Notes under the pieces: model-generated
The model's database searches: none
Seen by the model: the letters and a program-made list of their open reading frames with translations, nothing else
Told to the model about the DNA's origin: nothing
Program-made: the position numbers and the translations under genes
Part shown: in pieces, positions 67-44,829 of the stretch
Layout: each line of letters starts with the position of its first letter
How positions within the stretch are numbered: the first letter of the stretch is position 1
IMG/VR virus record: IMGVR_UViG_3300025276_000051
Location: 1 to 47,904 of that record
Source of the DNA: a virus
DNA length: 47,904 nt
Strand: one strand, 5' to 3'

Positions 67-456
67 ATGGAAAAACTATTTAAACAAAGGGGTGAGTTTA
101 ATGAAGCTTTTAGTATTAACAGTAGAGCCCATTTAGGGAACTTAAGCGAGGCTTCTTTTGGATTAGAGTATAGAATGTTAGCTGAAGAGTTAGAGGAGTA
201 TCTAACAGCTTGTATGGAGAATGACACAATTGAGATTGTTGACGCTATAGGAGATATGTTGTACCTAATTATCGGTGTAGCAAAAAAACATGGTATGACA
301 CCTAATATGTTGGAGTCAGTTATGAATGAGATACACCAAAGCAATATGTCTAAACTGCACAACGGTAAAGTTGTTAAAGATGAAAACGGAAAAGTATCTA
401 AACCCGATACATTTAATCCTCCTAATTTAGTTAATGTTTTAAAATCACACATTTAG
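67..456 (+). CDS. MazG-like nucleotide pyrophosphohydrolase
   Basis: A 129-residue all-alpha NTP pyrophosphohydrolase of the MazG / PRA-PH type. Such enzymes hydrolyse (d)NTPs to monophosphates, and in phages are thought to alter nucleotide pools or stress signalling. The metal-binding pattern is visible: acidic cluster E40/E41 with E43/E44, then E56, D59 and D63 in a segment reading DAIGDMLYLIIG. The C-terminal run NEIHQSNMSKL and the Gly/Lys-rich tail ending in FNPPNL are typical of small phage members. It is the first complete rightward gene. Its ATG follows an A/T-only leader with no Shine-Dalgarno, and the primase-helicase starts 9 bases after its stop. Substrate specificity cannot be read from sequence. 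Confidence 0.88.
   Translation: MEKLFKQRGEFNEAFSINSRAHLGNLSEASFGLEYRMLAEELEEYLTACMENDTIEIVDAIGDMLYLIIGVAKKHGMTPNMLESVMNEIHQSNMSKLHNGKVVKDENGKVSKPDTFNPPNLVNVLKSHI
445..451 (+). promoter_or_regulatory. TCACACA leader motif before the primase-helicase
   Basis: TCACACA lies exactly 14 bases before the ATG at 466. The following 14 bases (452-465) match, with one difference, the leader of the virion gene that starts at 24544 on the other strand. The motif overlaps the 3' end of the upstream coding sequence, so its conservation is not explained by that protein. Function unknown. Confidence 0.55.
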
Positions 457-465
457 GATAAGAAA

Positions 466-2511
466 ATGATAGAAAGAAGTACACTAGAAGCATTCCTAAA
501 AGCAGGAATAAGTATAATACCCCTAAAGAAAGACAAATCACCTAATATTAAATCTTGGCAGAAGTACAATAAAACACTATACCAACTAGGAAAAAACGTA
601 AAAGAGTTTGAGTCTGTTGGTATGGTTATGGGAGATATAAACGGAGCTGAAACATTAGATGTAGATCAGAAATACGATATACCTAAAAAAGGAGAAGCAA
701 CATTAATAAAAAGGCTAGAAGAAAAAGTAGATTTATTTATCCCTGGTCTTTGGGATAAACTAACCATAGCTACAACAGTTAATGGTGGGTATCACCTAAT
801 ATATAAAGTAGCTCAAATGGGTGGTAGTATTAAACTAGCCATGAGACCTGCTACAAAAACAGAAGCCAAGAAAGGAACAAAGCAAGTAGTTCTCCTCGAA
901 ACAAGAGGTCAGAAATCCTACATAGCTTGTAAACCTGCCGAAGGATACGAAATAAAACAAGGGAAATTGTTTGGTCTAAAAGAAATTACTGTAGAAGAAA
1001 GAGATATGCTCTTTGCTTGTGCTAGAATGTTTGACCAAGTACTTCCTCCTGTATTTATGAAAGATCCAAGTATTGAATGGAACTCTGAAGGATTAACACC
1101 TTGGGCAGATTATTCAGATAGAGGAGATTGGAGAGGAGTTTTAACCAAGCATGGATGGACAATAGTTAAAGAAGTAGGCTCTAAGACTTTTGTTAAGAGA
1201 CCAGGAGCTACAAGCCCAATGTCAGGTAACTTTGACTCTAAATATGGTCTACTAAGAGTGTTTAGCTCTTCATCTGTTTTTGATCACAATCAATCCTACA
1301 ACCCTTTTGCTATTTACTCTATGTTAGAATGTGGTGGAGACATCAAGCAAGCAGCTAGAGAATTAAGAGAAGCAGGATACGGAAGAACACCAGAGTTAAA
1401 GTATAAAAAGAAAGATGAACCCGTAGAGTTTGACAATACCAATGAGTTCCTATCAAGTGAAGATTCAGACTCTAAGCTAGAAGCATACGCTACAGGTAAG
1501 ATTAAACAAGGACTATCTACAGGTTCAGTAGAGTTTGATAAGTTCTATAGATTTAAACCTAAATCCTTTGATATTATAGGTGGTACAGCAGGTTTAGGTA
1601 AAACAACTATTGCCCTATGGTTAGCTGCTTTATCTAACGCTTTACATGGCTGGAGATGGATTATATACTCCACAGAAAACGAAGTGTTTGAACTTAAAAT
1701 GTATATCCTTGAGTTTCTGTACTGCGAGAACGTACAACAAATGTCTGCTCAACACAGGAAACTAGGTATAGATTATATCAATAAGAATTTCTTTTTTATA
1801 GAATCTGATGATATGCTCTCTCACTTGGATCTGTTTGATATGGCTGAAAAGATTATAGAAAAGCATGGTAAGTTTAACGCTATGCTTATTGATCCTATTA
1901 ACTCTTTAAAGATAGATTTTACTGAGACAGATAGAAAGTTAAACACACACCAATACACAGTAGAGATGTCTACCAAGATGAAGCATTGGGCTAAGAAGCA
2001 AGATATGTCTTTATATGTAGGTATGCATGGTAATACAGAAAGTGCTAGACGTATCCACATGAGTGGAGATTTAAAAGGTAATCCTGCACCACTTAATGCA
2101 GCAGACCTAAGTGATGGTGTTGTTTGGGAGAATAAATGTGACCACATGATTCTTATACACAGATATAAATTTGTACCTGAATTAAAGACACAAACACAAT
2201 TTGCAGTAAAGAAAGTAAAGTCAACTTACTCAGGTGGAGATGTAACTCCCTTAGACAGTCCTGTAGTATTTCAAATGGGAAGAGGATCAACTAGAGATTG
2301 TTTTGGTTTTTATGATGTAAATAAATTAAATCCATTGAAGAATTGGTTTAAAAAGACTATCTTAGGGGAAGTAAAAACCAAGGAAGAATTAGTCGCTAAC
2401 TTTGAATCCACTAGAACCCAAATTGAACAAGAATCACCAAAAATATTAGCAGAAGATAACTTCTCTAGAGGTACTGTATTTAAAAAACATATAGAAGAAC
2501 CTCCATTTTAA
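466..2511 (+). CDS. Prim-pol primase / RecA-fold replicative helicase
   Basis: A 681-residue bifunctional replication protein. Residues about 1-200 look like an archaeo-eukaryotic-type prim-pol domain (PF09250-like): an IIPLKKDKSPNIKSW start, the metal-binding LDVD (D65, D67), and GGYHLIYK with H110. The C-terminal half is a RecA/DnaB-like helicase. Walker A is GTAGLGKT (residues 373-380), Walker B is MLID ending at D476, and a distal basic segment (VKKVKSTYSGG) fits motif H4. The architecture parallels T7 gp4 but with a prim-pol in place of a TOPRIM primase. It presumably unwinds and primes phage DNA at the fork, and prim-pols may also extend primers. The next gene, a single-strand binding protein, supports a replisome role. 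Confidence 0.88.
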   Translation: MIERSTLEAFLKAGISIIPLKKDKSPNIKSWQKYNKTLYQLGKNVKEFESVGMVMGDINGAETLDVDQKYDIPKKGEATLIKRLEEKVDLFIPGLWDKLTIATTVNGGYHLIYKVAQMGGSIKLAMRPATKTEAKKGTKQVVLLETRGQKSYIACKPAEGYEIKQGKLFGLKEITVEERDMLFACARMFDQVLPPVFMKDPSIEWNSEGLTPWADYSDRGDWRGVLTKHGWTIVKEVGSKTFVKRPGATSPMSGNFDSKYGLLRVFSSSSVFDHNQSYNPFAIYSMLECGGDIKQAARELREAGYGRTPELKYKKKDEPVEFDNTNEFLSSEDSDSKLEAYATGKIKQGLSTGSVEFDKFYRFKPKSFDIIGGTAGLGKTTIALWLAALSNALHGWRWIIYSTENEVFELKMYILEFLYCENVQQMSAQHRKLGIDYINKNFFFIESDDMLSHLDLFDMAEKIIEKHGKFNAMLIDPINSLKIDFTETDRKLNTHQYTVEMSTKMKHWAKKQDMSLYVGMHGNTESARRIHMSGDLKGNPAPLNAADLSDGVVWENKCDHMILIHRYKFVPELKTQTQFAVKKVKSTYSGGDVTPLDSPVVFQMGRGSTRDCFGFYDVNKLNPLKNWFKKTILGEVKTKEELVANFESTRTQIEQESPKILAEDNFSRGTVFKKHIEEPPF

Positions 2512-2538
2512 CCAAGTAATCAATTAAATTTTTATATA

Positions 2539-3207
2539 ATGAGTGCATTGAGCAACAACAACAGTGGTAACAAACATTTTGTTAAAGTTATCGGAACAAA
2601 GCCAGGATCTGACGAGATCTACTTTACAGAAAACAAAAAAGTAGATGGTAGATGGATCAATGAAGGAAAGTTTTCATCTTTAGAAGGGAATTTCAAAGGT
2701 ATTACTTTTAACGACAAGACTATTACGGTAGCAGGATCAGAAAAAGACATTAAAGAAGTTAACATCTTAATCTCTAACGGAGGTGAAGAGTTTCAGTTAA
2801 CAGGTATAATGCAGTCTGGTTTCTACAGAAGTATTGTAAATACAATAGCTTCAGTACCTAAATTAGGACTTTTAAAAATGACAGTAGCTTACAATAAAAC
2901 AGGATATGCTAGTTGTTATTTAGTTCTAAATGGTCAAGACCGTCCAGAGTGGGCATTAACATGGGCTGAACAGTCTAAGATGATTGATGTTACAAAGGAC
3001 AAGAAAGGTCAAACAGTAGCTACAGATGCTGAAGAACTAATTACTAAACTTGTAGAGTTAGTTTCTAAAGTTGAGGTTGATACTTCAGTAGCAGAAATAG
3101 AAGCTACAGCTTCAGATCACCTTGATTTAATGCAAGAAAAAGATACCTTTGAAGGTGTTGATGAGCCTGCTAAAGAATTAGAGATTGATGATGATTTACC
3201 TTTTTAA
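2539..3207 (+). CDS. Single-stranded DNA-binding protein
   Basis: A 222-residue protein that probably coats single-stranded DNA during replication and recombination. The first 140 residues are beta-rich, with alternating hydrophobic segments such as KTITVAGS and YASCYLVLNGQ, consistent with an OB-fold. The C-terminus is an acidic tail ending DDDLPF, nearly the DDDIPF tip that cellular SSB uses to recruit partner enzymes. The gene sits between the primase-helicase and the exonuclease and is followed directly by a strong intrinsic terminator. The leader is A/T-rich without Shine-Dalgarno. The call rests on tail, length and context, because OB-folds are hard to recognise by eye. Confidence 0.78.
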   Translation: MSALSNNNSGNKHFVKVIGTKPGSDEIYFTENKKVDGRWINEGKFSSLEGNFKGITFNDKTITVAGSEKDIKEVNILISNGGEEFQLTGIMQSGFYRSIVNTIASVPKLGLLKMTVAYNKTGYASCYLVLNGQDRPEWALTWAEQSKMIDVTKDKKGQTVATDAEELITKLVELVSKVEVDTSVAEIEATASDHLDLMQEKDTFEGVDEPAKELEIDDDLPF

Positions 3208-3217
3208 GGTATAAACT

Positions 3218-3252
3218 AACCCATACCTCTTCGTGCAGTGGAGGTGTGGGTT
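3218..3252 (+). terminator. Intrinsic terminator after the SSB gene
   Basis: A 12-bp stem pairs 3218-3229 (AACCCATACCTC) with 3241-3252 (GAGGTGTGGGTT), with one T-G wobble and an 11-base loop. A short T-rich tail (TTTAAATT) follows. It lies 10 bases after the SSB stop codon. A TCACACA motif follows at 3258, the same terminator-then-motif order seen at 6748-6790. It could be a full terminator or an attenuator for the downstream genes. Confidence 0.8.
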
Positions 3253-3257
3253 TAAAT

Positions 3258-3264
3258 TCACACA
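3258..3264 (+). promoter_or_regulatory. TCACACA leader motif after the SSB terminator
   Basis: This is a fifth copy of the leader motif, 6 bases after the terminator stem. At the 14-base spacing seen in the other four cases there is a TCT codon rather than ATG. The nearest in-frame non-AUG start is the TTG at 3267. Confidence 0.45.
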
Positions 3265-3266
3265 TT

Positions 3267-3560
3267 TTGGAAAAGGAATCTAAACTAACCCAAGGGGCTA
3301 AGTACCTAATTAAAACAAACGAGAAGCATTTAAAATCACTAGAACTACTTAAACCCTTTAAGGTAGAACACCAGGATATTGAAAAGTCTAGAGCTTACAA
3401 AAAGTTGCTTCAGTTTTATGTTACCCTTGGAAAAGAAATACTTACCTTAGAGGAAAATAATAAAAAATTAAAAGATGCAGTTACTGCTTTTATTCACATC
3501 GTTGATAATAATAATGACTTGGATTATAAAGAAGTTGAAAAACTAAAATCCTTCCTCTAG
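3267..3560 (+). CDS. Small helical protein, unknown function
   Basis: About 97 residues, highly charged and helical, with a probable coiled coil over the last 60 residues (LGKEILTLEENNKKLKDAV). No family is recognised. The start is uncertain. The upstream in-frame GTG at 3246 falls inside the terminator stem, and there is no in-frame ATG near the N-terminus. I therefore prefer the TTG at 3267 (MEKESKLTQ), which follows the TCACACA motif; two other genes of this arm also begin MEK. It lies between the SSB and the YqaJ-type exonuclease, so a role in replication or recombination is possible but unproven. Confidence 0.6.
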   Translation: MEKESKLTQGAKYLIKTNEKHLKSLELLKPFKVEHQDIEKSRAYKKLLQFYVTLGKEILTLEENNKKLKDAVTAFIHIVDNNNDLDYKEVEKLKSFL

Positions 3561-3597
3561 AGTATAAGGTAATTTTTAAATTAAAATCAAAATTAAA

Positions 3598-4758
3598 ATG
3601 AAGAAATTAAAACCGATCACTCTTGATCTGGATACTAAAGACTTAGGTATTGTCTTACCTAAAGAATTACAACACTTAAATGAATATTCTAAATATGCGA
3701 AATGGCTATGCGAAGATGTAGTTGGTTTCAAAATAGATCAGTTTGATAAGAATGGTGCTCCAAATTTAGATTGGTATTCATTTAGACAATATCAAATTGG
3801 TAGTTCAGAAGTAGCTACAGTAATGGGTCTTGATGAATACGGAGACAAGGTAAAACTATTTTACTCTAAATTAGGAGAGAAATTCCCATTCTTTAATTCT
3901 AGATTTACAATACTTGGTCTTCACTTAGAATCTAAAATATCTGAAATTGCTTGCTACCACGATGGTACAGATGAAGGATGGATTGAAAACCTATTTAAAG
4001 GTGAAGTAGTTAGGCAGAAAGCTGAGATTCCTTTCTACGCTATTAACGTAAACTACCCACACTTAGCAGTAAGTTTAGATTATGTAATGCTAGGTGGTCA
4101 AAAAAGCCCCTTTACAGGAGAAGTAATTCCTTACGACTACCCATTAGAGATAAAGAACATCTCAGAGATGGCTTACAACAAATACAATAAGACACTTCCA
4201 GTAAGATATTTGGCTCAATTACAAATTCAAATGCTAGTTCTTGGTTGTTTAACCTCAGAAGTTGCATACATGGTTGCAGGTAATGATTTTAAAATGATGC
4301 CTGTAGATTTAGATGTTGAGTTTTGTCAAAACCTATTAGAACAGTCTCACGCATTTTGGAAATTAGTTGAAGAAGGTAGAGAAGTGTATGAAGGGTATCA
4401 CTTACTTGATGAAGAAGGTAAAGTAGAAAAAGACATTGCTATGTCACAGGTAGAGCCTGATCCAAGTGGTACAGACGCTTTTAAAGAGTTCTTTGCTGCT
4501 AAGTACAAAGTAAGTAGGCTTGAATCTTTAAGAATGGGTACAAGCGAAGAATGGGATTTAGCAGTAGAATCTAAACAGCTTAATGATGTTATAAAAGACA
4601 CTAAGAAAGCTAAAGAGATAATAGATCAAAAGCTTAAACTTGCTAGCAGGAATGAAGAGGTAATTGACTTTGGAGATAACGGGCGTATTATTCACAGAAG
4701 ACCTGAAGGTGGTAGAGCTTCCTTTAGAGTAAACATTAAGAATTGGAAAGATGATTAA
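3598..4758 (+). CDS. YqaJ-family recombination exonuclease
   Basis: A 386-residue nuclease of the YqaJ / lambda-exonuclease type (PF09588-like), which resects double-stranded ends to expose single strands for annealing. Motifs appear in the family order: GSSEVATVMGLDEY near residues 77-90, the conserved glutamate E111 in LGLHLESKI, D161 in SLDYVM, then E184 and K186 in LEIKNI. A Gln-rich helix (YLAQLQIQML) follows, as is usual for YqaJ. The C-terminal 80 residues are helical and may mediate oligomerisation. Its natural partner is the annealing protein at 6029-6682. It overlaps the next nuclease gene by 8 bases, indicating translational coupling. Confidence 0.88.
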   Translation: MKKLKPITLDLDTKDLGIVLPKELQHLNEYSKYAKWLCEDVVGFKIDQFDKNGAPNLDWYSFRQYQIGSSEVATVMGLDEYGDKVKLFYSKLGEKFPFFNSRFTILGLHLESKISEIACYHDGTDEGWIENLFKGEVVRQKAEIPFYAINVNYPHLAVSLDYVMLGGQKSPFTGEVIPYDYPLEIKNISEMAYNKYNKTLPVRYLAQLQIQMLVLGCLTSEVAYMVAGNDFKMMPVDLDVEFCQNLLEQSHAFWKLVEEGREVYEGYHLLDEEGKVEKDIAMSQVEPDPSGTDAFKEFFAAKYKVSRLESLRMGTSEEWDLAVESKQLNDVIKDTKKAKEIIDQKLKLASRNEEVIDFGDNGRIIHRRPEGGRASFRVNIKNWKDD

Positions 4759-5338
4759 TAGTAAACTCCCTTATCTTAATAAGGAAGAATTAGATTCTAA
4801 TGAAGAGTTGTATTACTCTTGGTATTTATCTGAATTGTGTGACCATGGATATATTAATTCTGTTATATCTCAACCTGCTAGTTTTCAACTATCATCTGGT
4901 TTAAATCACACATTTATAAAAAGTATGAAAACCAAAGACAAAATACTAGAGGAGACAATAGTAAAGCCTAGTGTATATACAACAGACTTCTATATAAAGT
5001 GGACAGATAAAGCATTAGGTGTATTTGTTAATACTTTAGATACAGATAACAAAATAATGAAAGGTGCTTCACCTAGATTAGATATTTGTGATGATGACCT
5101 AAACTCTTATACTGAAGTTAAACCTAAGTTTGATCAAAACAATATGACACGATTAGCTAGAACTAACATAAAATGGGTTTGGTCTAATCATGGTGTATAT
5201 ATCAACCTAAGTGTAATACCTAATCTATTTAAAAAAACATTTACCCCACAAAGGTATTTAACTACCAATCTTTCTGGAAAGCCTAGAAAGTTAGACTATA
5301 ACCCAAGAAGCTTACAAGAATACTTAAAAACATTATAA
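4751..5338 (+). CDS. PD-(D/E)XK-like nuclease, possible Holliday junction resolvase
   Basis: 195 residues with a plausible PD-(D/E)XK core: D79 in VYTTDFYIKW, then E122 and K124 in YTEVKPKFD, followed by a helix and the strand HGVYINLSVIP. This spacing and the small size fit phage structure-specific nucleases such as endonuclease I-like or DUF1064-like resolvases. It is translationally coupled to the exonuclease by an 8-base overlap and to the next gene by a TAATG junction. It probably resolves branched recombination or replication intermediates. The fold is inferred from three residues and context only, so the exact substrate is open. Confidence 0.6.
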   Translation: MINSKLPYLNKEELDSNEELYYSWYLSELCDHGYINSVISQPASFQLSSGLNHTFIKSMKTKDKILEETIVKPSVYTTDFYIKWTDKALGVFVNTLDTDNKIMKGASPRLDICDDDLNSYTEVKPKFDQNNMTRLARTNIKWVWSNHGVYINLSVIPNLFKKTFTPQRYLTTNLSGKPRKLDYNPRSLQEYLKTL

Positions 5339-5697
5339 TGGAAAAAGTAAAGAAAAACACACTTCTAATTAACACAATGGCTTCAGCTATTTTACTATTA
5401 GATAACTACTACGAATTAGAAGATACTAAACTGTACTCTAATTCTTTAAAAATGACAGGTAATAAATTTTACGCAGAACTTAAAAAGAAGATGACACCTT
5501 TTGAAGATATGCTACATAGAACAGGAGAAATAACAGAAGCTGGTAAATATTTAGAGGTTATAGAATCTATCGTTGGTAATGTAGCTCTGTTGAATATAAA
5601 TGAACTTCGTATGTTGCAGTCATTTATAGAGCAATTAAAAGCAGGAGATGTTGTTGATGTTGACGCTGAAACTTATGCTAAACTAAAAAAAGGATGA
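5338..5697 (+). CDS. Small helical protein, unknown function
   Basis: 119 residues, predicted almost entirely helical, with Lys/Glu-rich amphipathic segments and no cysteine pairs or nucleotide-binding motif. It starts with an ATG that overlaps the previous stop (TAATG) and ends with a 4-base ATGA overlap into the next gene, so it is part of one tightly coupled operon of recombination genes. No family is recognised; a DNA-processing accessory role is a guess from location. Confidence 0.7.
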   Translation: MEKVKKNTLLINTMASAILLLDNYYELEDTKLYSNSLKMTGNKFYAELKKKMTPFEDMLHRTGEITEAGKYLEVIESIVGNVALLNINELRMLQSFIEQLKAGDVVDVDAETYAKLKKG

Positions 5698-6032
5698 AAA
5701 GAGCCTTAATATTAGACAACGTAGGAAAGGAAGTAATTACTGTTAATGAGGATTATGACACAATTAATATAATAATCCCTGAGAGACCTTCTAAATACGG
5801 TAATAAGCCTGCTATGGAATACCAGATCAAAGGAAAAGAACTACTAAAAGAGCTACATAGGTTTATTGGTGGGGTAATACAGAACAATACAGCAGTTACT
5901 AAACTAAAAGCAGATATAAAAGAACTACAAGATCAGTCCTTAAAATCTATTAGTGGAACCAAAGAATCAAAAGAGATTAGTAGTAAAATAGAATTAATCA
6001 GAAACAAGTACCTAGAAATAATAAAAAGATGA
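5694..6032 (+). CDS. Small protein with C-terminal coiled coil, unknown
   Basis: 112 residues. The N-terminal 45 residues contain short hydrophobic strands (INIIIPERP). Residues about 60-112 form a Lys/Glu/Leu-rich amphipathic helix that could be a coiled coil (LKADIKELQDQSLKS). It overlaps both neighbours by ATGA. It directly precedes the annealing protein gene, so it may act in the same complex. No family is recognised. Confidence 0.68.
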   Translation: MKRALILDNVGKEVITVNEDYDTINIIIPERPSKYGNKPAMEYQIKGKELLKELHRFIGGVIQNNTAVTKLKADIKELQDQSLKSISGTKESKEISSKIELIRNKYLEIIKR

Positions 6033-6682
6033 ACTATAAAAACAAAGACAACCAGGAATATGTAGATGTAGCAGATAGAATACAATTGTTCCATGAACAA
6101 TACAAAGACCATTCAATCCTTACAAATGTAATACAGCTAAATAAGTACAACGATTCTAAGAATATGTTTGCTCTTGTTCAATGCCAAATACAAAGTCCTG
6201 ATAGAATTATAATTGCTACAGGTCACGCATTAGAAATTGAAGGAAGTAATGATATTAATAAATTCTCTTACTTAGAAAATGCCGAAACCTCAGCAGTAGG
6301 TAGAGCACTTGGATTCTTAGGTATTGGGTCAAGCAAGTCTATAGCGTCTAAAGAAGAAGTTAAACAAGCTGTATCTAAACAGCAAGTAGTAGAGAAAAAA
6401 GAAACCGTAGCTAAAGGTAAAAAACTATCATCTGACGCTAAGAAGGATCTTAAAGAAATAGACCTTAGTTTTATCCCTGCTCTTAAGGAAGGTAAACGTA
6501 CAGAAGCATCACTTAAGAAATTAGGTAAAGGTCTTGTAGGTTTAGGAATAACAAAGCAAGTAGCTATGCTAATATTTAACAGATACGATCAAAAAGGTGA
6601 TTGGAAAACAATAGCTAATTTCTACACTACAGCAGGCGTTAAAGATATAGAAGACTTTATTACTAAAGTAAGAGAAAATTAA
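6029..6682 (+). CDS. Rad52/ERF-like single-strand annealing protein
   Basis: 217 residues. Residues about 10-115 carry the signature seen in phage annealing proteins related to ERF/Rad52: an N-terminal VADRIQLFHEQY, a beta-rich middle (MFALVQCQI, IIIATGHALEIEG) and the hallmark helix LENAETSAVGRALGFLGIG followed by SIASKEEV. The C-terminal part is Lys-rich and helical. It would anneal complementary strands generated by the YqaJ-type exonuclease encoded 1.3 kb upstream, forming a two-component recombination system. The gene closes the coupled block. An intergenic region with a terminator hairpin follows. The exact subfamily (ERF, Sak or a separate clan) cannot be fixed by eye. Confidence 0.75.
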   Translation: MNYKNKDNQEYVDVADRIQLFHEQYKDHSILTNVIQLNKYNDSKNMFALVQCQIQSPDRIIIATGHALEIEGSNDINKFSYLENAETSAVGRALGFLGIGSSKSIASKEEVKQAVSKQQVVEKKETVAKGKKLSSDAKKDLKEIDLSFIPALKEGKRTEASLKKLGKGLVGLGITKQVAMLIFNRYDQKGDWKTIANFYTTAGVKDIEDFITKVREN

Positions 6683-6722
6683 GAACTTGACTATAATTAC
6701 ACCAAGAATTACGTTCTTTAAA

Positions 6723-6780
6723 ACTGGTTTATGTTATGATTTTGCTAGGGTAAGTTTGAAGCCAGTCTTACCCGTTTTTA
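6723..6780 (+). terminator. Terminator hairpin with overlapping alternative pairing
   Basis: A perfect 7-bp stem, GGGTAAG (6748-6754) with CTTACCC (6767-6773), is followed by GTTTTTAT, a classic intrinsic terminator after the annealing gene. The loop contains AAGCCAGT (6759-6766), which can pair with ACTGGTTT at 6723-6730 (8 bp, one wobble). The two pairings together would make an H-type pseudoknot, or they could compete as an attenuator. A TCACACA motif follows at 6784. Confidence 0.7.
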
Positions 6781-6783
6781 TAA

Positions 6784-6790
6784 TCACACA
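6784..6790 (+). promoter_or_regulatory. TCACACA leader motif
   Basis: The motif lies between a terminator and the ATG at 6805, with exactly 14 bases between motif and start codon, as in the three other ATG-linked copies. The 14-base spacer here is A/T only. Confidence 0.55.
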
Positions 6791-6804
6791 ATTAATAAAA
6801 TTAA

Positions 6805-7053
6805 ATGCTAGATAAAATAATAGAATGGTTTCCTGAAGAAGAATTTTTAAAAGCAGACGGTTTTGATAATGCTATAATAGGAGTGTCAGAAGGCTTTAAC
6901 GAACCTATAAGACTAATATACTCTGTTAATAAATGTGTCAATATATTAATGGCTGACATGACAGAAGAAGATGCTTTAGAACATTTTTACTTTAATATAA
7001 AAGGTGCTTACGTTGGTGAAAAAACTCCTATTTGGTGTATTGATGATTTATAA
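6805..7053 (+). CDS. Small acidic protein, unknown
   Basis: 82 residues, acidic, with a mixed alpha/beta look and a C-terminal GEKTPIWCIDDL. No motif or family is recognised. It begins a new segment after a terminator and a TCACACA leader, and its stop overlaps the ATG of the HNH gene (TAATG), so the two are co-translated. A role connected to the nuclease is possible but not shown. Confidence 0.68.
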   Translation: MLDKIIEWFPEEEFLKADGFDNAIIGVSEGFNEPIRLIYSVNKCVNILMADMTEEDALEHFYFNIKGAYVGEKTPIWCIDDL

Positions 7054-7382
7054 TGAAATATAAAAAAAGAAAAAAAACAGGTGAATGGGATATGTTCTTA
7101 GAAATATGGTCCAAAACAAAACATCATAACTGTGAAAAATGTAATAGAGATTTAGGCAGCGTGCCTGCTCCTATTTATTTTTCACATATTGTACCTAAAA
7201 GCAAAAGTAATGCTCTTAGATTAGATCCTAACAACATTGAGCTGCTTTGTGGTGATTGCCATAGTAAGTATGAGTTTGGTACAATAGATCAAATAAAATC
7301 AATGAACAATTCCGAAAGGATGAAAGAATACCTAAAGGAACACAATTACCTAAGATGGTTTAAAATATGGGGAGAAGAATAA
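7053..7382 (+). CDS. HNH endonuclease
   Basis: 109 residues with a zinc-stabilised HNH fold. C27 and C30 form the first knuckle, H45 in the SHIVPKS motif is the likely catalytic histidine, N60/N61 lies in LDPNNIELLC, and C66, C69 and H70 form the second knuckle. Small HNH proteins in tailed phages nick or cut double-stranded DNA; some assist terminase during packaging and others act as homing or host-DNA-degrading enzymes. This one sits at the far end of the DNA-metabolism arm, not beside terminase. It is coupled to the preceding small gene and its stop codon directly abuts the convergent minus-strand gene. Confidence 0.85.
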   Translation: MKYKKRKKTGEWDMFLEIWSKTKHHNCEKCNRDLGSVPAPIYFSHIVPKSKSNALRLDPNNIELLCGDCHSKYEFGTIDQIKSMNNSERMKEYLKEHNYLRWFKIWGEE

Positions 7383-8037: not shown

Positions 8038-8043
8038 AATTTA

Positions 8044-24544: not shown

Positions 24545-24558
24545 TTTCTTATTCTAAA

Positions 24559-24565
24559 TGTGTGA
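24559..24565 (-). promoter_or_regulatory. TCACACA leader motif (minus strand)
   Basis: The minus strand reads TCACACA, 14 bases, ATG (24544). The 14-base spacer equals that before the gene at 466 except for one base. The two genes are unrelated in function and on opposite strands. Confidence 0.55.
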
Positions 24566-32118: not shown

Positions 32119-33986
32119 TACGCTATAACTTTAGTTGCTACTACATCATGTAAATTAACATCACCTACTGCTGTCCCTATTGCTTTTATTAAAATATCGT
32201 AAGAATTATTAGTAAAATCAAGAGAACCAATTTGTTGTTGAGCTATCTCGTTAACTGCTCCTGATATAGATGTAGATGACGAGCACTTAGAAACAGTATT
32301 TGAAGATCTTTGTATTTTTATGTTTAAAATAAAACCAACACCATTAGGTGTTAAAGTATATAGGTTTTCAGATAATAATATTCCTGCAAAATAAATTTTT
32401 ATTTTTTTAGCATTAGTATTAGCATTGAAATTACCAGTAGAATTAACAAAAATAGTTGAATTATTTGAAGTCAAAGTATTAGCAACAATTGAAATAGTAG
32501 CTAGAGTTTCCTCTGTAGTTAATGTGTTTGCTACTGTAGAACTACTTCCTTGGAAAAATATATTTGATGAATCTAAAATCCAAGACCTTACACCTGCTGT
32601 TGTTGAAGAAAGTATTCGACCTGTTGAAGCAGGATTTCCTAATGAATTTTCTTTTAAAGCTAAATCTGTATTGTCTGTCAAATCTACTAACTGAGTATCC
32701 CTTGTGAAAGAAACAACCCAATTTGTATTTGAAGAATCCCAAACACCTTTTGCTATTATGTTTCCTTTTAATACTTGCTCTGTTGTTAAAGCTACACCCA
32801 TTAATGTTATTGAGAAACTACCCTTTGTTATTGTAGCATTGTAGTCTATAATAAATGTGTCACCATCAACAAGACCTGGAGCTAAAGCATAAGAAACTGA
32901 ACCCGTTAAAGTACCTGTGCCTGTTAATGATATATACCCCTTACTAGTTCCTGCTGTTAGTGTTGTAGTAGAACCACCTAAAGATATTGCTTCTGTATTA
33001 ACACCCTGTACTGGCTCTGAGATTCCTGAAGATCTTAAATTAGCTACTGATAAAACAATTCCTGGACTTCTGAAAGATTCAAACCAAGTTGGTGTTCCAT
33101 CATTAAAAAACTGAAGACAAATAACATTCTCCTTTGATCCTGACGCAAAAGCACCATTATTCGCTAACTGAATATTACCCCCTTCTTGAACTGTTACAAT
33201 CCTTGCAGCATTTACACCTCTTAAGATTAATAAATCACCTTTGGCGAAAATTCCAGGATCTATTGTTGATAAAACATCTGCTGCTATTGAACCTTCTGTC
33301 TCTACAGAAATTACAGTTACATTACCATCTCTAGATGGATAAATAGCTCCTGATGAAATAGTAAAGCTTTTTTGAGTGAAAGGAGTAGATGCTGACTTCC
33401 TAATAACACCAGAAGTAATATCTGTTGCCCCTACTAAACTTCCTTCTACTGCTGTTGGAGATGAGTTCAAGTAAATCCTATAACCAATCTGACTATCTAC
33501 TAAATCTGAAGTATCTACTCCACCATCTATAGTTGTAGTAGTTCCAGTTGTTGTTCCTGAGACTGCTATAACACCTGTAGAGCCATTTAACAAACTTCCT
33601 TGAGAAGGATCTAAGTAAACAGTTACAACATTTGCTGAAACTAAAGCTGTATATGAAGGAGAACTTGTGTAAGCGTTAATAGCATTGGCTAAGTTTGTAG
33701 CTGTATCCGAAGTTGTAGCTCCTGTTATTGGTGTAGACGTATCGAATACAGAAACCGAGTTATAAGCTAAGTTTGTAATAGTACCTCCTCCTGCTGTAAT
33801 AACTACTGTAGCTGATGCCGATATATTAGAGGTTACAGGAGATGAAACTATCATCAGTCTTTCAGCAAAATCCCTACCTTCTGGTGTGTTTTGAAACTGA
33901 TTACCTGTGAATACTCCATCAGAATCAGTAAGGTATATAATACCTGAACCTGAACCTAGTTTTGATAATTCTGTTTTTACTGACAT
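32118..33986 (-). CDS. Fibre-like virion protein
   Basis: 622 residues, Ser/Thr/Asn/Gly/Val-rich and low in charge. N-terminal 40 residues (SVKTELSKLGSGSGIIYLTD) look like an attachment segment. Residues about 55-110 hold a small domain with TSDTATNLANAINAY, similar to one in 13840-14505. Residues 330-450 resemble fibre beta domains (FIDYNATITKGSFSITLMG; DSSNTNWVVSF). The last 150 residues form a jelly-roll-like tip (VANTLTTEETLATISIVANT, KIKIYFAGILLSENLY). Its location between capsid and neck genes fits a collar, head or side-tail fibre. Confidence 0.7.
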   Translation of the reverse strand: MSVKTELSKLGSGSGIIYLTDSDGVFTGNQFQNTPEGRDFAERLMIVSSPVTSNISASATVVITAGGGTITNLAYNSVSVFDTSTPITGATTSDTATNLANAINAYTSSPSYTALVSANVVTVYLDPSQGSLLNGSTGVIAVSGTTTGTTTTIDGGVDTSDLVDSQIGYRIYLNSSPTAVEGSLVGATDITSGVIRKSASTPFTQKSFTISSGAIYPSRDGNVTVISVETEGSIAADVLSTIDPGIFAKGDLLILRGVNAARIVTVQEGGNIQLANNGAFASGSKENVICLQFFNDGTPTWFESFRSPGIVLSVANLRSSGISEPVQGVNTEAISLGGSTTTLTAGTSKGYISLTGTGTLTGSVSYALAPGLVDGDTFIIDYNATITKGSFSITLMGVALTTEQVLKGNIIAKGVWDSSNTNWVVSFTRDTQLVDLTDNTDLALKENSLGNPASTGRILSSTTAGVRSWILDSSNIFFQGSSSTVANTLTTEETLATISIVANTLTSNNSTIFVNSTGNFNANTNAKKIKIYFAGILLSENLYTLTPNGVGFILNIKIQRSSNTVSKCSSSTSISGAVNEIAQQQIGSLDFTNNSYDILIKAIGTAVGDVNLHDVVATKVIA

Positions 33987-35764
33987 TATTCGTATATATT
34001 AATGTTAATATTAATTCTGTAAAATTCCATTTCATCATTCTTTATAAGTCCAGTGGCTCTCCTACCTGAATAGTTGAAAAATCTAACTCTAACTGATCCT
34101 GTTGTTGTTTTTACAATTACAGGAGAAATCACTTTAGTAGTGTATAAATCTGAAGTAGAATCTATAGATGTGCCTGCCTCTGAGAATAATTGCTGATAAC
34201 AATCCTGAGTATGAATTTTAAAGGTGTTGTTTGCAGTATTCTGAAAGCCACTAATAGTTAATTCGTAAGCATTATAATTTTGTGGACCTGATGTATTTGT
34301 AACAGTAGGTGTTTTTAAATTTGAAACATTCTGTATAACTTGGTTGTCTACAGACAAAGCAACACTGTTTCCTCCTGTTTTACTCAATTTAAAACTCATA
34401 AACTCTACAGGAGCAGGTGTAACAGGTACACTTAAATTATAAGCTGTATTTCCTGAAACTATTGAGGAAGTTATAGTAACGCTACCGTTTGAAGAAACAA
34501 CAGAGCTTGTAGCAGTCGCAGCAGTTATGCTATCTAAAACTGCTTGAGATAAACTAAGACTATAAGTAGTTGTATTACCTGAAGTGTTTGAGCTAACAAC
34601 AACTTTACCATCTGATGAGTTTACTACCGTTATACTAGAAGTCCCTAAACCTGTAATTGGCTGAGGTGTCGTATCTGAACAAGAACAATCTGGAGTACAC
34701 TGAGTAACCGTAATTATTTCTTTAACAATAGAATTAACTTCCTTGTCATACCCACATTCAAAGGCTTGCCTTAATGCTGATAAATGAGAAGTAGCTAATA
34801 TGTATTTATTAAGTTCTTGGTTTGCTAAAACATCATTAACTCCTCTATAAGCTAAATAAGCTTTTAAAGTAGAATTTACACAGCAAAAAACCTCGCATAA
34901 TCTTACATCACAATCTACATCTAATTCCGAAGTAGCCGATACAGTATTTATAACCGATATACCATTTCCGAAATCATAAAAAGATTTAGTTGATACCTTA
35001 AAGGATTGTGTCTGACTATAAAAAGTATTTGTACTAACCACTGATTCGTATCCTACAACTGGTGTAAGTGCCAAAGTTGGTGGGTAGTAAATTGTATTTG
35101 TCTTAGTGGAAATAGAACCACCTGGTGTAGGATTTCCTACATTAGCAACACCTATTACAGTATTTATTCCTGTAGTTGATATTTTTACAGAAGTTACTGT
35201 GTAGTTACCATCATTATTAGGAGATCCAGGAGATCCTATTACATTAAATGTGTCACCTACTAAAAACAATCCAGACTTCTCTCCTGCAATAGTGAAAGTG
35301 TTTGCTGATGCATCAGCTACAGTTATAGTAAACTGATCTGAAGGAGTTGTAGATCCTGACAAATAGTTTGTAGCATCTGTTGACGTTAATCTTGGAGATA
35401 AACAATCTACTGTAGGAGTTAAGATACCTGTTGGTGATACATATTGAAAGTTGTATCCTACAGTATAAGTAACAGTATTTGTTCCATCAGTTGCTGTATA
35501 TTTAAAAGAATAATTCCCCACCTCTGGACTTCCGTTGGCTAGTAAAGGAATTAATATAGTAGTGCTGTTAATTCTAGAAGTGCTAACTGTAATGTCAGGA
35601 GATCCACCCGTATAAACTATTCCACTAGGAGCTGTAACTTGTATTACACCTGTAATACTTCCTGCACCCTGAGCTGAGTAATCTGTGACATCAGTGAAGA
35701 CAAACTTTGGTGAAGTTCCCCCCATTGAGTAAGCTACATTTAATTTTGTTGAAACTAAAGCCAT
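33986..35764 (-). CDS. Ig-like fibre protein with cysteine-rich helical core
   Basis: 592 residues. The first 250 are beta-sandwich-like (PKFVFTDVTDYSAQG; GNYSFKYTATDGTNTVTYTV), suggesting Ig-like repeats. Around residues 290-370 a helical segment contains clustered cysteines (DCDVRLCEVFCCVNSTLKAY, later CTPDCSCSD), a feature I associate with structural proteins of Bacteroidota phages. The C-terminal half returns to beta structure. It starts a new transcript after the terminator at 35811-35838 and overlaps the next fibre gene by one base. Probable fibre or collar protein; cysteines may bind metal or form disulfides. Confidence 0.65.
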   Translation of the reverse strand: MALVSTKLNVAYSMGGTSPKFVFTDVTDYSAQGAGSITGVIQVTAPSGIVYTGGSPDITVSTSRINSTTILIPLLANGSPEVGNYSFKYTATDGTNTVTYTVGYNFQYVSPTGILTPTVDCLSPRLTSTDATNYLSGSTTPSDQFTITVADASANTFTIAGEKSGLFLVGDTFNVIGSPGSPNNDGNYTVTSVKISTTGINTVIGVANVGNPTPGGSISTKTNTIYYPPTLALTPVVGYESVVSTNTFYSQTQSFKVSTKSFYDFGNGISVINTVSATSELDVDCDVRLCEVFCCVNSTLKAYLAYRGVNDVLANQELNKYILATSHLSALRQAFECGYDKEVNSIVKEIITVTQCTPDCSCSDTTPQPITGLGTSSITVVNSSDGKVVVSSNTSGNTTTYSLSLSQAVLDSITAATATSSVVSSNGSVTITSSIVSGNTAYNLSVPVTPAPVEFMSFKLSKTGGNSVALSVDNQVIQNVSNLKTPTVTNTSGPQNYNAYELTISGFQNTANNTFKIHTQDCYQQLFSEAGTSIDSTSDLYTTKVISPVIVKTTTGSVRVRFFNYSGRRATGLIKNDEMEFYRINININIYE

Positions 35765-35863: not shown

Positions 35864-36946
35864 TTAGTCTTTTTTTGCTAAATCCTTCTCTGCTGCTTCA
35901 ACCAATTCTTTTAATTGTTTGTTAACTTCTGGATTCTGTCTTAGATAAAGAACAGCATCTCTACGACCTTTTACTTTACCTAAATTACCATGCTTAACCA
36001 TTTTAAAGAAACCGAAAGAATTAGACACAACCTTAACTTTAATACCTCTATCAAATAAATCATTTTCTGGATATTCCTCCCATTCCTTTGACTTAGCTGT
36101 CTTAGTACCATTGTTGTCAAGTAATTTACTAACCTCTGCAAAAGCTGATTTATACTCCTCTCTTAATAAAGAAAGTTCTACAAAATATTCTAAAGCATCT
36201 TTGTAAATAGGAGCTTCTACAATTACAGTTCTGTTACCGATCTCATTGTAAATAGCATTTGTTTGAGGATCAACAGAAATAATTTTTTTCTCTATAGCTT
36301 TTATTAAAACTAATTTAAGTTTTCTTTCATCTGACTTTAATTCTTTCTCGAATTTATCTGCATCTGCATCTATCTCTCTTAAAAATAACTGCTTAATTTC
36401 TGCAATTGAATTAACAGACTTGTCATAAGGAATACCAAGAGATAAAGCTAAACCTTCTGACTCTTCATCGTTCATGCTATAAATAATCATCTTTAGCTTA
36501 GTGTTTTTCTCACTCTTCTTTATTTCTTTGTCTGCTTGGTAGTTAGAATCGTTCGCTCTGAATAAAATAGATTTACCAGGCATTGCTGTTTCTTGATTCT
36601 TTTCGTTAAAGTTACAAAGCTCTAAGTACTCTAACTTAGTAGCTTCTCTTTCATTAACCACTAACGTACCATCTATTAAGTGAATAGAACCTCTTTTTGT
36701 TTCTGCGAAATCTGATTGCTCATCTACAAAAATAGAAGTCTCACCTATTGAATATCTTATTTGTCTAATACCTGTTGTCTCGTCTCCATCTTCATCTTCC
36801 CAAGTCATGTAAACTTCATCAACTTCTGGAATCTCTACTGAAGGTGGAAACTTTTTTCCTGATGTATTTTCTCTTGTTAGTGTATAGATAACACTTTTGA
36901 AATCTGTTACTGTTAAACCTGCTGGGGCTTTTGCTAATTTTGCCAT
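35864..36946 (-). CDS. Head-region protein, unknown
   Basis: 360 residues, very rich in Lys and Glu. N-terminal 140 residues are beta-rich (AGLTVTDFKSVIYTLTREN; IRQIRYSIGETSIFVDE), the middle is helical, and the C-terminus ends with a long charged helix (QLKELVEAAEKDLAKKD). It lies downstream of the capsid gene and the basic head-region gene and just before a terminator. It could be a head-completion, decoration or internal head protein. No family is recognised. Confidence 0.62.
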   Translation of the reverse strand: MAKLAKAPAGLTVTDFKSVIYTLTRENTSGKKFPPSVEIPEVDEVYMTWEDEDGDETTGIRQIRYSIGETSIFVDEQSDFAETKRGSIHLIDGTLVVNEREATKLEYLELCNFNEKNQETAMPGKSILFRANDSNYQADKEIKKSEKNTKLKMIIYSMNDEESEGLALSLGIPYDKSVNSIAEIKQLFLREIDADADKFEKELKSDERKLKLVLIKAIEKKIISVDPQTNAIYNEIGNRTVIVEAPIYKDALEYFVELSLLREEYKSAFAEVSKLLDNNGTKTAKSKEWEEYPENDLFDRGIKVKVVSNSFGFFKMVKHGNLGKVKGRRDAVLYLRQNPEVNKQLKELVEAAEKDLAKKD

Positions 36947-37250: not shown

Positions 37251-37279
37251 AGTACCTAAGTTTATTGTTAATATTAAAA

Positions 37280-37305: not shown

Positions 37306-37325
37306 ATTCTTATTGATTCTTATTA

Positions 37326-38753: not shown

Positions 38754-38771
38754 TTTTTTTGTTTTTTATAA

Positions 38772-39878
38772 TTAATCATCTCTATATTTTGCAGCAATTT
38801 GCTGCATTTCCGACATACCTGAAGTGTCTGGAGCAGTTGATTTAGCATCGAAATTAGTGTTGTTGATCTTCTTCACTGCTGCCTCTTCACCTGCGTTTGA
38901 CTGACTCTCTAGAGCTGCCTTGATAGCTTTATCAAATACTAAACCTTTTGCCAAAGTTTCTGACATAGATTTCATATCTAACTTACCATCATTCATGAAA
39001 TTGGTGTAATAATTATTAACCCCTTTCATTTGACTTTCGACTTCCTGCTTGTCTTCTTTAGTTAATTCATATTTAAAGACATCGCTCTCTCCGATTTTAA
39101 TGTCTAAATTGTTTAATGAACTAACCTGACTACTAACATCAGTTTCGTAAGCCTGTATTGCATCTTCTCTTACCTTCTCTTGAGCTTTTAAAGTCTCTTC
39201 TGAAACTTCCTCTTTTTTAGTTAACTCAGGAAGGGAAAACCTTTTGTCCTGTTTTAACTCTGAGAGGTAAGATTTTGATTCTCTTTCTAAACGTGCGAAC
39301 TTGCTTAAATCTGAATTGTGTTTAATAAGCTCTCTATCATCTAAGTCATCTATGTCTACATTTTTTAACTGATCGTAGTCATAAAGCTCATTCTCGATTT
39401 CTGCTCTTGTTAAACCCTGGTCCAGTTCTAAAGCTTTCGCCATAGCCTGTCTACCATCTAATTTTTCAACATCTAAAGTTTGAACACTCGCTATCTCTTT
39501 TATTCTATCCCAAGAAGTTTCTGATTCTAGCAACTTATCTAATCTATCTCTAGATTCTTCAGAATACTTATCCTCGTATCTTTCTTGTTCTGATTTTGTT
39601 TTCAAAGAACTGTAATGGTCATCGAAGTCTTCAAACTTTCCATACTTGTCACCCATTCGCTCTGCCCACATTTCCTCAAAAGAAGAAGTAGATTCTACTT
39701 TCTCAGTATCTTCTGTCTTTTTCTCTTCTGAACTATCAACAGCTTCTTCCGAAGCAGGTTCTTCTGTTGCTGAAGCTTCCGTTTCTGCAACCTCTGGTGT
39801 ATCTACATTTTCTTCTTTTGAATCTGATAATACAACCTCTTCACCTGTTTGTGACGATAAAAAATCTTCTAATCCCAT
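38772..39878 (-). CDS. Scaffold-like head assembly protein
   Basis: 368 residues, extremely acidic (Glu/Asp/Ser-rich N-terminal 70 residues) followed by charged helices and predicted coiled coils (QEKVREDAIQAYE, KEDKQEVESQMKGV). This composition, and a location between the portal and the major capsid gene, are the usual signs of a scaffolding protein that nucleates procapsid assembly and is later removed. The C-terminal helix with SGMSEMQQIAAKYRDD could contact the capsid protein. No motif proves the role. Confidence 0.7.
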   Translation of the reverse strand: MGLEDFLSSQTGEEVVLSDSKEENVDTPEVAETEASATEEPASEEAVDSSEEKKTEDTEKVESTSSFEEMWAERMGDKYGKFEDFDDHYSSLKTKSEQERYEDKYSEESRDRLDKLLESETSWDRIKEIASVQTLDVEKLDGRQAMAKALELDQGLTRAEIENELYDYDQLKNVDIDDLDDRELIKHNSDLSKFARLERESKSYLSELKQDKRFSLPELTKKEEVSEETLKAQEKVREDAIQAYETDVSSQVSSLNNLDIKIGESDVFKYELTKEDKQEVESQMKGVNNYYTNFMNDGKLDMKSMSETLAKGLVFDKAIKAALESQSNAGEEAAVKKINNTNFDAKSTAPDTSGMSEMQQIAAKYRDD

Positions 39879-39923
39879 TATAATTTAATTTTAATTAATT
39901 CTAAATTTAATAAATTTTCTCTA

Positions 39924-42308: not shown

Positions 42309-42337
42309 GCTCGCTTAAAGAATTAATACTATATAAA

Positions 42338-42345
42338 CAAATATA
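42338..42345 (-). promoter_or_regulatory. Candidate -7 box upstream of the portal gene
   Basis: TATATTTG on the minus strand, 30 bases before the portal ATG, matches TAnnTTTG. It lies in the only A/T-rich spacer of the packaging cluster. No convincing -33 TTG is seen. Confidence 0.35.
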
Positions 42346-42358
42346 TATAAAAAAAAAA

Positions 42359-44440
42359 TTACTTCCTCTTTTTTCTGTAAGTCTTAACGAATTTCTTAGA
42401 TACTAAACTCTTTTTCTGAGGTCTATAACTCCTCGCTGCAAACAAACAAAGTGCTGCCCCAACAAACTCATCATAGTCAGTCCACTTCTGAGGATTGAAC
42501 TTCAACCAACACTTACACAAATCCTGAAAGTAAACCCTACCCATAACATTTGTATCATAATCCCTTCCCGTATTCTCATAAATATATGACTCCGTAACAG
42601 ATACAGCAGCCTCCCTAACTGCCTCACCACTCATAGGAATACCCTTCTCAGATTGTCGCTTACGAGAATATTCAGTATGAGTCTCCATAGGTCTCTCCAT
42701 TAAATAAGAACCAAAACCATTGTTCTCAAACCACCTTATCAACCCTATCTTGTTATTCTCGCACAAAAGCTCACAACCATAAAAAACAGACTGCTTTGCC
42801 AAATCATCATAAAACATCTCTGGAGTAGCAGGTCTATTAACATACTCGCAAACAAACATATTACTCCTGTCTGAATCTAAAGGATCTAACTTGCGAAAAA
42901 CATAACTAGCACCATTTGACTTCTTACCATCTGTAGTTATCTTATGGTCAAATGGATCACAACCCGAAACTATCGTTGTATAATTACCTGGCTTCCTACT
43001 CCTTCCCGATAAAACCTTCCTATTCCTATCCTGCTGATTAGGTAACCAACACTGCTTCCAACGACCAGTCTCCGTAGGCTGCCAAGCAACATTAGTCTTC
43101 TCCTGATCTAACCAAACAAAATTTCCCCTAACAACTATACCGTTGGTCTCAGAATTATAACTTATCTGATCATTCAACTTTATAACATCAAAAGGACTTA
43201 ACTTACCCTCCTCAATAAAAGCCTCATGTATATCCAAAGGATACTTCCTCTTCTCACCTGCCAACGCAGAACCTGTTAACCCTAGTCTCCTATTATCAAT
43301 ATAACTCCTTGAACCAAACTCTATAACCTTTCCATGAATACCCATAACAGGCTTCTCAGGGTCTTCAACGACACTATACCCGTACTCATCTACAAAACCC
43401 TCTAAACCATAAAGAGCTGGCTTGAACCAACGAAGTAATCCTGTTGGAGTTGTATTCCTACCCTGTGAAATAGCCAAAGGTAAATTACTCTCATCCCACA
43501 ACTTCTTAGCATTATCTCCACCCTTCTCTTCCATCTCCTCAGCAGTAGTAGTATGAATAGACTTCCCTATAACAGTACTACCCTGAACCAAACACTCCTT
43601 CACAATCAACCACCTCTCATAAACATTCTCCTCTACAGTCTTACCAAATTCATCATCATAGTAATACTTCATCTTATCACCATCATAATGAGTATCAGTA
43701 GCTGGACCATGATCTATCATGGAATTAAGAACAGTACGGTACTCCTTCTTAGCACCCTTGGAACTCCTCTTTGCTGGCTCTGCAAAAACTAAAGAAGCCT
43801 TTGGAGCTGACTCACCAACATCTACAGGCTTTAAATACGCTGGCAACTTCTGCCAAGATAACATCAACTTCCTGAAAATCTTCTTAGCATCTGCACCCGT
43901 CTTACTCTGAATACCACCATTGGCATCATACTGTAAAGTAATGTTATTATACATAAGAGAACAAGCCCTACCCGTCTTACCATCCCTACGATTAGTAACA
44001 AGCATCCAGCCTAAACTGTTCTCCAAAAACTTACAATGATTCTCTATGTAAAAAAAAGTGGAATCCGAATCCTTCCAATAAGGTACAATACCATCTATCC
44101 TCCAATGAGCTAAATAAAAATAATGATCACCAGTCAAATACTCTATGTTCCCATGATTGTAAAACCAATAACCCTCAGTCCTACGCTTAGTAATCTTCTT
44201 TAAATAAATAACCTGATCATCAAAGTCTAAACCGTCAAACTCCCTCTGACTCAATATATCACTTGGAATCTTCCACCTCTGATTATTAATGTTCTGATTC
44301 CAACCAACTATCTTCTTATAAGAAGGTGGCTCTGGTAAAGTAATAGTATATTCCAAAACCCCACTTAACCTAATCTCTCGCTCCCTCTCAAATTCTGATG
44401 GTAACATTGCCGAAGGAGATAGCGTCTTGCGTTTTCTCAT
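42359..44440 (-). CDS. terL: Terminase large subunit
   Basis: About 693 residues with both packaging activities. ATPase: Walker A-like TNRRDGKT near residues 149-156, Walker B KYYYDDEFGK near 258-267 with its acidic pair, and a motif III-like HTTTAEEMEEKGG near 295. Nuclease (RNase H-like): D near 494 in VSGCDPFDHK, E near 560 in LLCENN, and D near 655 in TDYDEFVGAALCL. It powers DNA translocation into the procapsid and cuts concatemers. The R-R-D-G-K-T form of the P-loop is like that of other large terminases of Bacteroidota phages. It is coupled to the upstream small gene by an ATGA overlap. Confidence 0.93.
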   Translation of the reverse strand: MRKRKTLSPSAMLPSEFEREREIRLSGVLEYTITLPEPPSYKKIVGWNQNINNQRWKIPSDILSQREFDGLDFDDQVIYLKKITKRRTEGYWFYNHGNIEYLTGDHYFYLAHWRIDGIVPYWKDSDSTFFYIENHCKFLENSLGWMLVTNRRDGKTGRACSLMYNNITLQYDANGGIQSKTGADAKKIFRKLMLSWQKLPAYLKPVDVGESAPKASLVFAEPAKRSSKGAKKEYRTVLNSMIDHGPATDTHYDGDKMKYYYDDEFGKTVEENVYERWLIVKECLVQGSTVIGKSIHTTTAEEMEEKGGDNAKKLWDESNLPLAISQGRNTTPTGLLRWFKPALYGLEGFVDEYGYSVVEDPEKPVMGIHGKVIEFGSRSYIDNRRLGLTGSALAGEKRKYPLDIHEAFIEEGKLSPFDVIKLNDQISYNSETNGIVVRGNFVWLDQEKTNVAWQPTETGRWKQCWLPNQQDRNRKVLSGRSRKPGNYTTIVSGCDPFDHKITTDGKKSNGASYVFRKLDPLDSDRSNMFVCEYVNRPATPEMFYDDLAKQSVFYGCELLCENNKIGLIRWFENNGFGSYLMERPMETHTEYSRKRQSEKGIPMSGEAVREAAVSVTESYIYENTGRDYDTNVMGRVYFQDLCKCWLKFNPQKWTDYDEFVGAALCLFAARSYRPQKKSLVSKKFVKTYRKKRK

Positions 44441-44799
44441 TTCCTATCTGGCATCGCTGCCTCATAACTCGAAGCTACCTTCTTCTCATAAGTCCTGCTC
44501 TCCAACTCCTTAATCTTCTCCCCTCCTACCTTCTCAAATAAATCACGAAGAGCAGAATTGTGATCCAACATCTTATCTGCAAACTTTAACCCCCTCTCTA
44601 TCTGCTTGTCATCCTTATCGCCCAACTCACTACCGTCAAACTTAATCTTAGCCAACAAAGCATTGCCCTGGGAAATGAAATTCTTTAAAGATAAATAAGA
44701 CTCAGCCTCTATCGAACCGATCTCAAAACCCTTTAACTTATCCTCTAAGTAATCTACATACTTAGAAACCTTACCGTCTGTAATCTTTGGTCTTTTCAT
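44437..44799 (-). CDS. Probable terminase small subunit
   Basis: 120 residues, helical and charged, with a possible N-terminal DNA-binding helix (KITDGKVSKYVDYLEDKL) and a long central helix (QIERGLKFADKMLDHNSAL). It overlaps the large-subunit gene by 4 bases and is the first gene of the packaging transcript, the usual place and size for the DNA-recognition subunit. There is no clear HTH motif, so the call is mainly from position. Its leader contains the TCACACA motif 14 bases before the ATG. Confidence 0.55.
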   Translation of the reverse strand: MKRPKITDGKVSKYVDYLEDKLKGFEIGSIEAESYLSLKNFISQGNALLAKIKFDGSELGDKDDKQIERGLKFADKMLDHNSALRDLFEKVGGEKIKELESRTYEKKVASSYEAAMPDRK

Positions 44800-44813
44800 T
44801 CTTATATTTTAAA

Positions 44814-44829
44814 TGTGTGAATAATCACA
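44814..44829 (-). promoter_or_regulatory. TCACACA leader motif within an inverted repeat
   Basis: The minus strand reads TCACACA, 14 bases, ATG (44799). The motif also forms one half of TGTGA-N4-TCACA (44816-44829), an operator-like inverted repeat absent from the other copies. It lies between a strong terminator and the first packaging gene. Confidence 0.55.

Follow-up and report, generated by a model that had tools for sequence, protein, structure and literature searches.

Short asymmetric repeats that stand before genes are known from mycobacteriophages. The stoperators of Cluster A phages such as L5 and TipsytheTRex occupy promoter regions and the short gaps between genes; they all point the same way with respect to transcription and lose their function if reversed (PMC9283540). 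The Start-Associated Sequences (SAS and ESAS) of Cluster K phages precede the starts of many genes, some of them with inverted repeats (PMC3203893); nearly all of them share one orientation, they lie 3-7 bp before the start, and their consensus, GGGATAGGAGCCC, has a Shine-Dalgarno-like part with partial pairing to 16S rRNA. In Flavobacteriia, the primary sigma factor uses a -7 box, TAHHTTTG, the median leader in Flavobacterium psychrophilum is 24 nt (PMC9723704), and Flavobacterium translation initiation is tuned by adenines at -3, -6 and -12/-13 (PMC6847099).

Here we describe an element, TCACACAWTTA, in a marine phage sequence of 47,904 nt (IMGVR_UViG_3300025276_000051, positions 1 to 47,904), which we call the window, and in its relatives. 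From its sequence and placement, the element looks like a repeated phage gene-control site, at early genes, the primase and a packaging gene, and not like a ribosome signal. Like stoperators it is a short asymmetric repeat of promoter regions and short intergenic spaces, and for both a small helix-turn-helix protein has been proposed as the reader. It has no sequence relation to stoperators, however, it stands before gene starts in both orientations, and the candidate regulators are ORFs of 83-86 aa, whereas the stoperator repressor is a two-domain immunity protein of ~183 residues that halts elongation. With SAS it has in common that it is found within a few bases of start codons. It differs from SAS in occurring in both orientations and in its exact distance from the start: in the window 10 bases separate the end of its core from the ATG, at primase orthologs 6-12 bases do, and in the early-type copies of relatives the core begins 29 bases before the ATG. 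Its sequence differs from that of SAS and has no Shine-Dalgarno-like part, and the lineage makes no use of Shine-Dalgarno sequences. The first-pass annotation had noted that the motif is not a Shine-Dalgarno and had set it apart from the TAnnTTTG box; it reads TAnnTGTG and so differs at one nearly invariant base: TAAATGTG and TAATTGTG match the -7 box in the TA, T, T and G positions, but the nearly invariant T is G in every element-defining copy, and conservation runs past the box (TRACCTT). We therefore see the likeness to stoperators and SAS as one of apparent function, and claim membership in neither.

The phage and its relatives

Among named phages, the terL relatives are mainly Flavobacterium and Cellulophaga phages, with a few from Tenacibaculum and Maribacter. 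The primase of the window resembles those of Cellulophaga phi38:1 and Calle_1, and one virion protein matches Crassvirus muzzle families. Thirteen IMG/VR contigs have a terL that is 63-95% identical to that of the window. Near-complete relatives (62-68 kb) have a single control region, from which early genes run along one strand and structural genes along the other; we inferred "early" and "late" from the genes present and their arrangement. The window takes in the end of the early operon (67-7382), the structural operon in full and the greater part of the control region (about 46929-47904), and most early genes of this phage fall outside it. The first 25 kb of the window had no DNA match in the phage collection, and no relatives were found by single-protein searches of IMG/VR (primase, ORF 24544, exonuclease) or by a genome-collection search with the portal protein; the relatives' primases were retrieved by an alignment-based search, the single-protein query having given none.

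The functions first given to the genes behind the motif stand in part. The primase-helicase (466-2511) matches PHROG 19930 (3e-59), and ORF 44437-44799 is likely the small terminase (terS), based on its position beside terL and its conserved neighbourhood, but ORFs 6805 and 24544 have no assigned function; the latter, which had been called a virion protein, lies in the virion region. The same region encodes a 2766-aa protein (14577-22877, minus strand) with long charged repeats, which is poorly conserved even among close relatives and has no Pfam or PHROG match. Two structural genes (35864-36946 and 38772-39878) have the leader GAATTAATTAAAATTAAATTAYA-ATG in common, and A/T-rich leaders related to it precede terS in relatives. 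The ortholog of ORF 4751-5338 opens the late operon in relatives (e.g. G009 29163-29765), so this gene has moved between operons.

Copies of the element in the window

The first-pass annotation had reported TCACACA exactly 14 bases before the ATG of four genes. We recovered these four exact matches on the coding strand, at 445 (+), 6784 (+), 24565 (-) and 44820 (-), and no further one; dinucleotide shuffles gave 0.04 expected, and all four ATGs are real ORF starts. Because TCACACA had been picked after being seen, we scored each 7-mer at each spacing in the 40 bases upstream of 44 predicted starts against 300 dinucleotide shuffles. TCACACA at spacing 14 was the top positional word, and an equally extreme word appeared in 0/300 shuffles. 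The conserved unit is longer than the 7-mer: TCACACAWTTA, which reads TAAWTGTGTGA on the opposite strand and is the reverse complement of TAAATGTGTGA, has six copies in the window against 0.10 expected, and the two copies beyond the original four lie in a coding region and in the divergent early/late control region.

At 445..455 (+), TCACACATTTA places TCACACA 14 bases before the ATG of the primase-helicase, and the motif doubles as the last three codons and stop (445-456, TCA CAC ATT TAG) of a MazG-like ORF (67-456). At 6784..6794 (+), TCACACAATTA comes right after a terminator-like hairpin (GGGTAAG/CTTACCC) and before the ATG of ORF 6805-7053. On the minus strand, TCACACATTTA precedes the ATG of ORF 22886-24544 (24555..24565) and that of the probable small terminase (44810..44820), where it is part of a dyad, TAGTTGTG-ATTATTCA-CACATTTA (44810..44833, minus strand), in a lengthened leader. 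A second terminator-like hairpin is found at 44890-44864, and the remark that two copies follow terminators is thus borne out. A fifth copy, again TCACACATTTA (4906..4916, +), lies within ORF 4751-5338 with 12 bases between TCACACA and an internal in-frame ATG; its context is coding and its function uncertain. The remaining copy is TCACACAATTA at 47647..47657 (-), or TAATTGTGTGA on the plus strand, in the non-coding divergent control region ahead of the early genes. The control region also has two tandem elements on the minus strand, TTGACACATTTTAAATAGTACTACATTATATATAGG and TTCACACAATTAAGATAAAACAATACTATATATAAG (47517-47545 and 47630-47658), which have the same layout, with a TATATATA stretch following after about 16 nt; one of them looks like a TTGACA/TATAAT pair of the sigma-70 type, but matches of this kind are no commoner here than expected by chance.

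Between motif and ATG, the leaders of 466 and 24544 differ at one position, and the 6805 leader has the core and the spacing alone in common with the others. In a wide exact-pattern scan of IMG/VR, the window-type leader was limited to the window's clade and to unrelated contigs, most of the latter matches being followed by no ORF or a very short ORF.

Conservation at orthologous starts

The first-pass annotation had proposed absence at orthologous starts as grounds for refutation, and on this point the picture is mixed, as the motif is found at terS and 24544 in close relatives and at the primase in three diverged phages, but not at the terS of distant relatives or at the primase of the G006/G009 group. 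At terS, TCACACATTTA with its 14-base spacing is kept in three close relatives (G001-G003, terL 94-95% identical), and TCACACA is absent from all more distant relatives. In all 12 phages with a readable terS leader, a T-run is directly followed by a TATATTRG box or something close to it, usually with a terminator-like hairpin visible in the same region. This box is separated from the ATG by 47 nt in the window clade, against 17-24 nt in the eight relatives without TCACACA. The window clade alone has its terS leader lengthened, by 23-30 nt after the promoter-like box, and this stretch holds TAGTTGTG-N8-CACATTTA, a dyad that with this spacing was found within the window at terS alone. The motif therefore lies downstream of the likely promoter, in the transcribed leader, which is the position of an operator. 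The box being conserved well upstream of the motif, a transcript 5' end, which the first-pass annotation had offered as one reading, is disfavoured at least at terS, and we rejected it as a common cause on this ground.

At ORF 24544, the motif and its spacing are kept without indels in G002 and G003, the two contigs that cover this start. The 24 bases before the ATG are identical at 24/24 positions in G002 and 23/24 in G003, and further upstream the leaders diverge and contain indels.

Before the primase ATG, the 17-mer TTAAGGTCACACATTTA is found in L094, L095 and L098 (the G008 contig), whose primases are 45-46% identical to that of the window. The distance from TCACACA to the ATG is 10, 16 and 15 bases, respectively, versus 14 in the window, so the site is conserved and the exact distance to the ATG is not. 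The element is absent from the primase leader of the G006/G009 group (57-58% identical to the window primase), and in G011 the primase leader reads GCACAATTAGAAAAT-ATG.

The element in reverse orientation

The primase copies of L094, L095 and L098 are the early-gene element of relatives in reversed orientation. In the early operons of G006-G010, TAAATGTGTRACCTTAAAAACAAACAATC-ATG is repeated between genes, before many early genes, and 11 copies oriented as TAAATGTG, which has CACATTTA as its reverse complement, have a spacing of exactly 21 nt to the ATG of an early gene. The sequence TAAATGTGYRACC has 3-6 copies in each of the six early-gene-bearing relatives (G006-G011), against 0-0.03 expected, and 0 copies in phi38:1; TAAATGTGTRACCTT is a drifted form of the element in related phages. 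Copies in the TAAATGTG orientation were seen mainly in relatives that are ~65% identical at terL. The divergent control region has copies in the window, G006, G009, G010 and G011.

Some early copies in G008, G009 and G011 belong to the palindrome TAAATGTGCAACGTTGCACA or close variants, and in G006 and G009 two copies face each other within one intergenic inverted repeat. Directly before early genes we also noted perfect or near-perfect 16-base palindromes, TGTGCAACGTTGCACA, overlapping TAAATGTG, at ~62626 and ~61826 in G011 (IMGVR_UViG_3300024346_000047), ~16456 in G008 and ~26288 in G009. At ~35795 in G010 and ~14970 in G006, a hairpin carries TAAATGTG in its loop, and the conserved ACCTT is part of its stem (AAGGTG/CACCTT). 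A general dyad, TGTG-N8-CACA, was considered and rejected, as it holds at terS and in the G008 and G011 palindromes but fails at the other three window sites.

A probable DNA site rather than a ribosome signal

The independence of orientation, the variable spacing and the absence of a common RNA structure all point to a DNA site, presumably recognised by a DNA-binding protein. The best explanation, to which we give about an even chance, is that TCACACAWTTA is an asymmetric operator of ~11-15 bp for a phage-encoded transcription regulator and overlaps early-promoter-like boxes. Of the three readings offered by the first-pass annotation, a regulator site near start codons fits best and can be retained as putative. 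At early genes, where it has the TAAATGTG orientation and is one base off the host -7 box, a bound protein would cover the promoter and the transcript start. At the primase, terS and the two other genes the element is reversed, between the promoter and the start codon or just upstream of the ATG, and a protein bound there could block or time expression. A DNA site accounts for both orientations, the control-region copies and the coding copy, although having one copy inside a coding region also counts against an operator. An operator does not call for four identical 14-base spacings; these are only partly explained by common ancestry and the shared 466/24544 leader, and may reflect copied leader cassettes or a real constraint.

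Small XRE-like proteins are encoded next to the control region, and one of these would be the likeliest regulator. The candidates are an XRE-like helix-turn-helix ORF at 46376..46636 (-), with a Pfam HTH_31 score just below the curated cut-off (1.7e-05), and a second helix-turn-helix-like ORF at 46677..46928 (-), below the cut-off for HTH_25 (3e-04). By sequence and position, candidates in relatives are G006 16771-17064, G009 28044-28337, G008 18264-18548 and G010 33819-34142.

Several other readings deserve weighing against an operator. If the bases from -21 to -15 were a signal for translation or in the mRNA that is specific to the phage, and were read by the ribosome, bS1 or an RNA-binding phage protein, this would agree with the exact 14-base spacing at four genes and its retention without indels at terS (G001-G003) and 24544 (G002 and G003). 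A ribosome signal should keep its strand and spacing, however, and the element keeps neither across the phage group, since orthologous primases have spacings of 10, 15 and 16 with the block intact and the element is reversed in early leaders of relatives. Nor do the leaders match the adenine determinants of Flavobacterium initiation (PMC6847099), three of the four in the window having T at -12/-13, and no fold common to the four was found: a small hairpin over the motif forms in the terS leader only, fold z-scores are near zero for three leaders and reflect the terminator in the fourth, and Rfam gave no match. We consequently rejected an RNA hairpin as the common cause, and regard a translation signal, which the first-pass annotation had offered as a possibility, as distinctly improbable. 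Pairing between RNAs, in which early leaders (UAAAUGUGUGACCUUAA) would bind the complementary primase leader (UUAAGGUCACACAUUUA) and keep the primase in check for as long as early mRNAs are plentiful, is the least probable of the readings and deserves very little credence. The G008-type primase leader has 17 bases that are a perfect complement of the early-type copies in G006, G009 and G010, but such complementarity is automatic when one DNA element serves in two orientations, and the window shares the 11-base core alone.

A somewhat unlikely but serious possibility is that the element is itself a phage early promoter box, a TAnnTGTG variant of the -7 box used by host RNA polymerase, possibly altered by a phage factor. 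The four reversed copies would then be antisense promoters, close upstream of the ATG, that interfere with the primase, terS and the other two genes early in infection. TAAATGTG fits TAHHTTTG at 5/6 fixed positions, the relatives' leader of ~21 nt to the ATG compares with the F. psychrophilum median, there are copies in the divergent region, and TAATTGTG in the control region has a run rich in pyrimidines ahead of it, as do the window copies when read as their reverse complement. But host promoters hardly vary at the base that differs (PMC6847099), any antisense transcript at 6805 or terS would meet a terminator hairpin at once, the fixed distance to the ATG of the opposite-strand gene is left without a reason, and, further downstream, ordinary -7-like boxes seem to serve the first early gene. 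As judged from sequence, a variant promoter box and an operator are compatible, since the element is one base from the host -7 box. A promoter for a T7-like or crAss-type RNA polymerase seems improbable and was set aside, no polymerase candidate being seen: in G006, G009 and G011 there is no polymerase-like protein with a DxDGD catalytic motif and no large unassigned early ORF, and the 2766-aa virion-region protein matches no Pfam or PHROG family. It is also highly improbable that a short A-rich start leader was simply duplicated before several genes without any dedicated binding function. The one-base difference between the 466 and 24544 leaders would suit such copying, but 6805 matches in core and spacing only, conservation falls outside the core, and the core is common to diverged phages in both orientations and to a non-coding control region.

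Implications for phage gene control

Gene timing is largely unknown in marine flavobacterial phages akin to phi38:1 with crAss-like virion proteins, and the near-complete relatives that we examined have no recognisable RNA polymerase of their own. We can offer, as a tentative and rather unlikely idea, that one asymmetric site would act as an early-promoter box when it faces one way and, when it faces the other, would silence replication and packaging genes from a position linked to their start codons. If this were true, a single phage factor, or early transcription, would switch the whole programme without a phage RNA polymerase. A DNA site specific to this phage group would also provide a handle for pulling down its regulator and for mapping the regulon by sequence alone.
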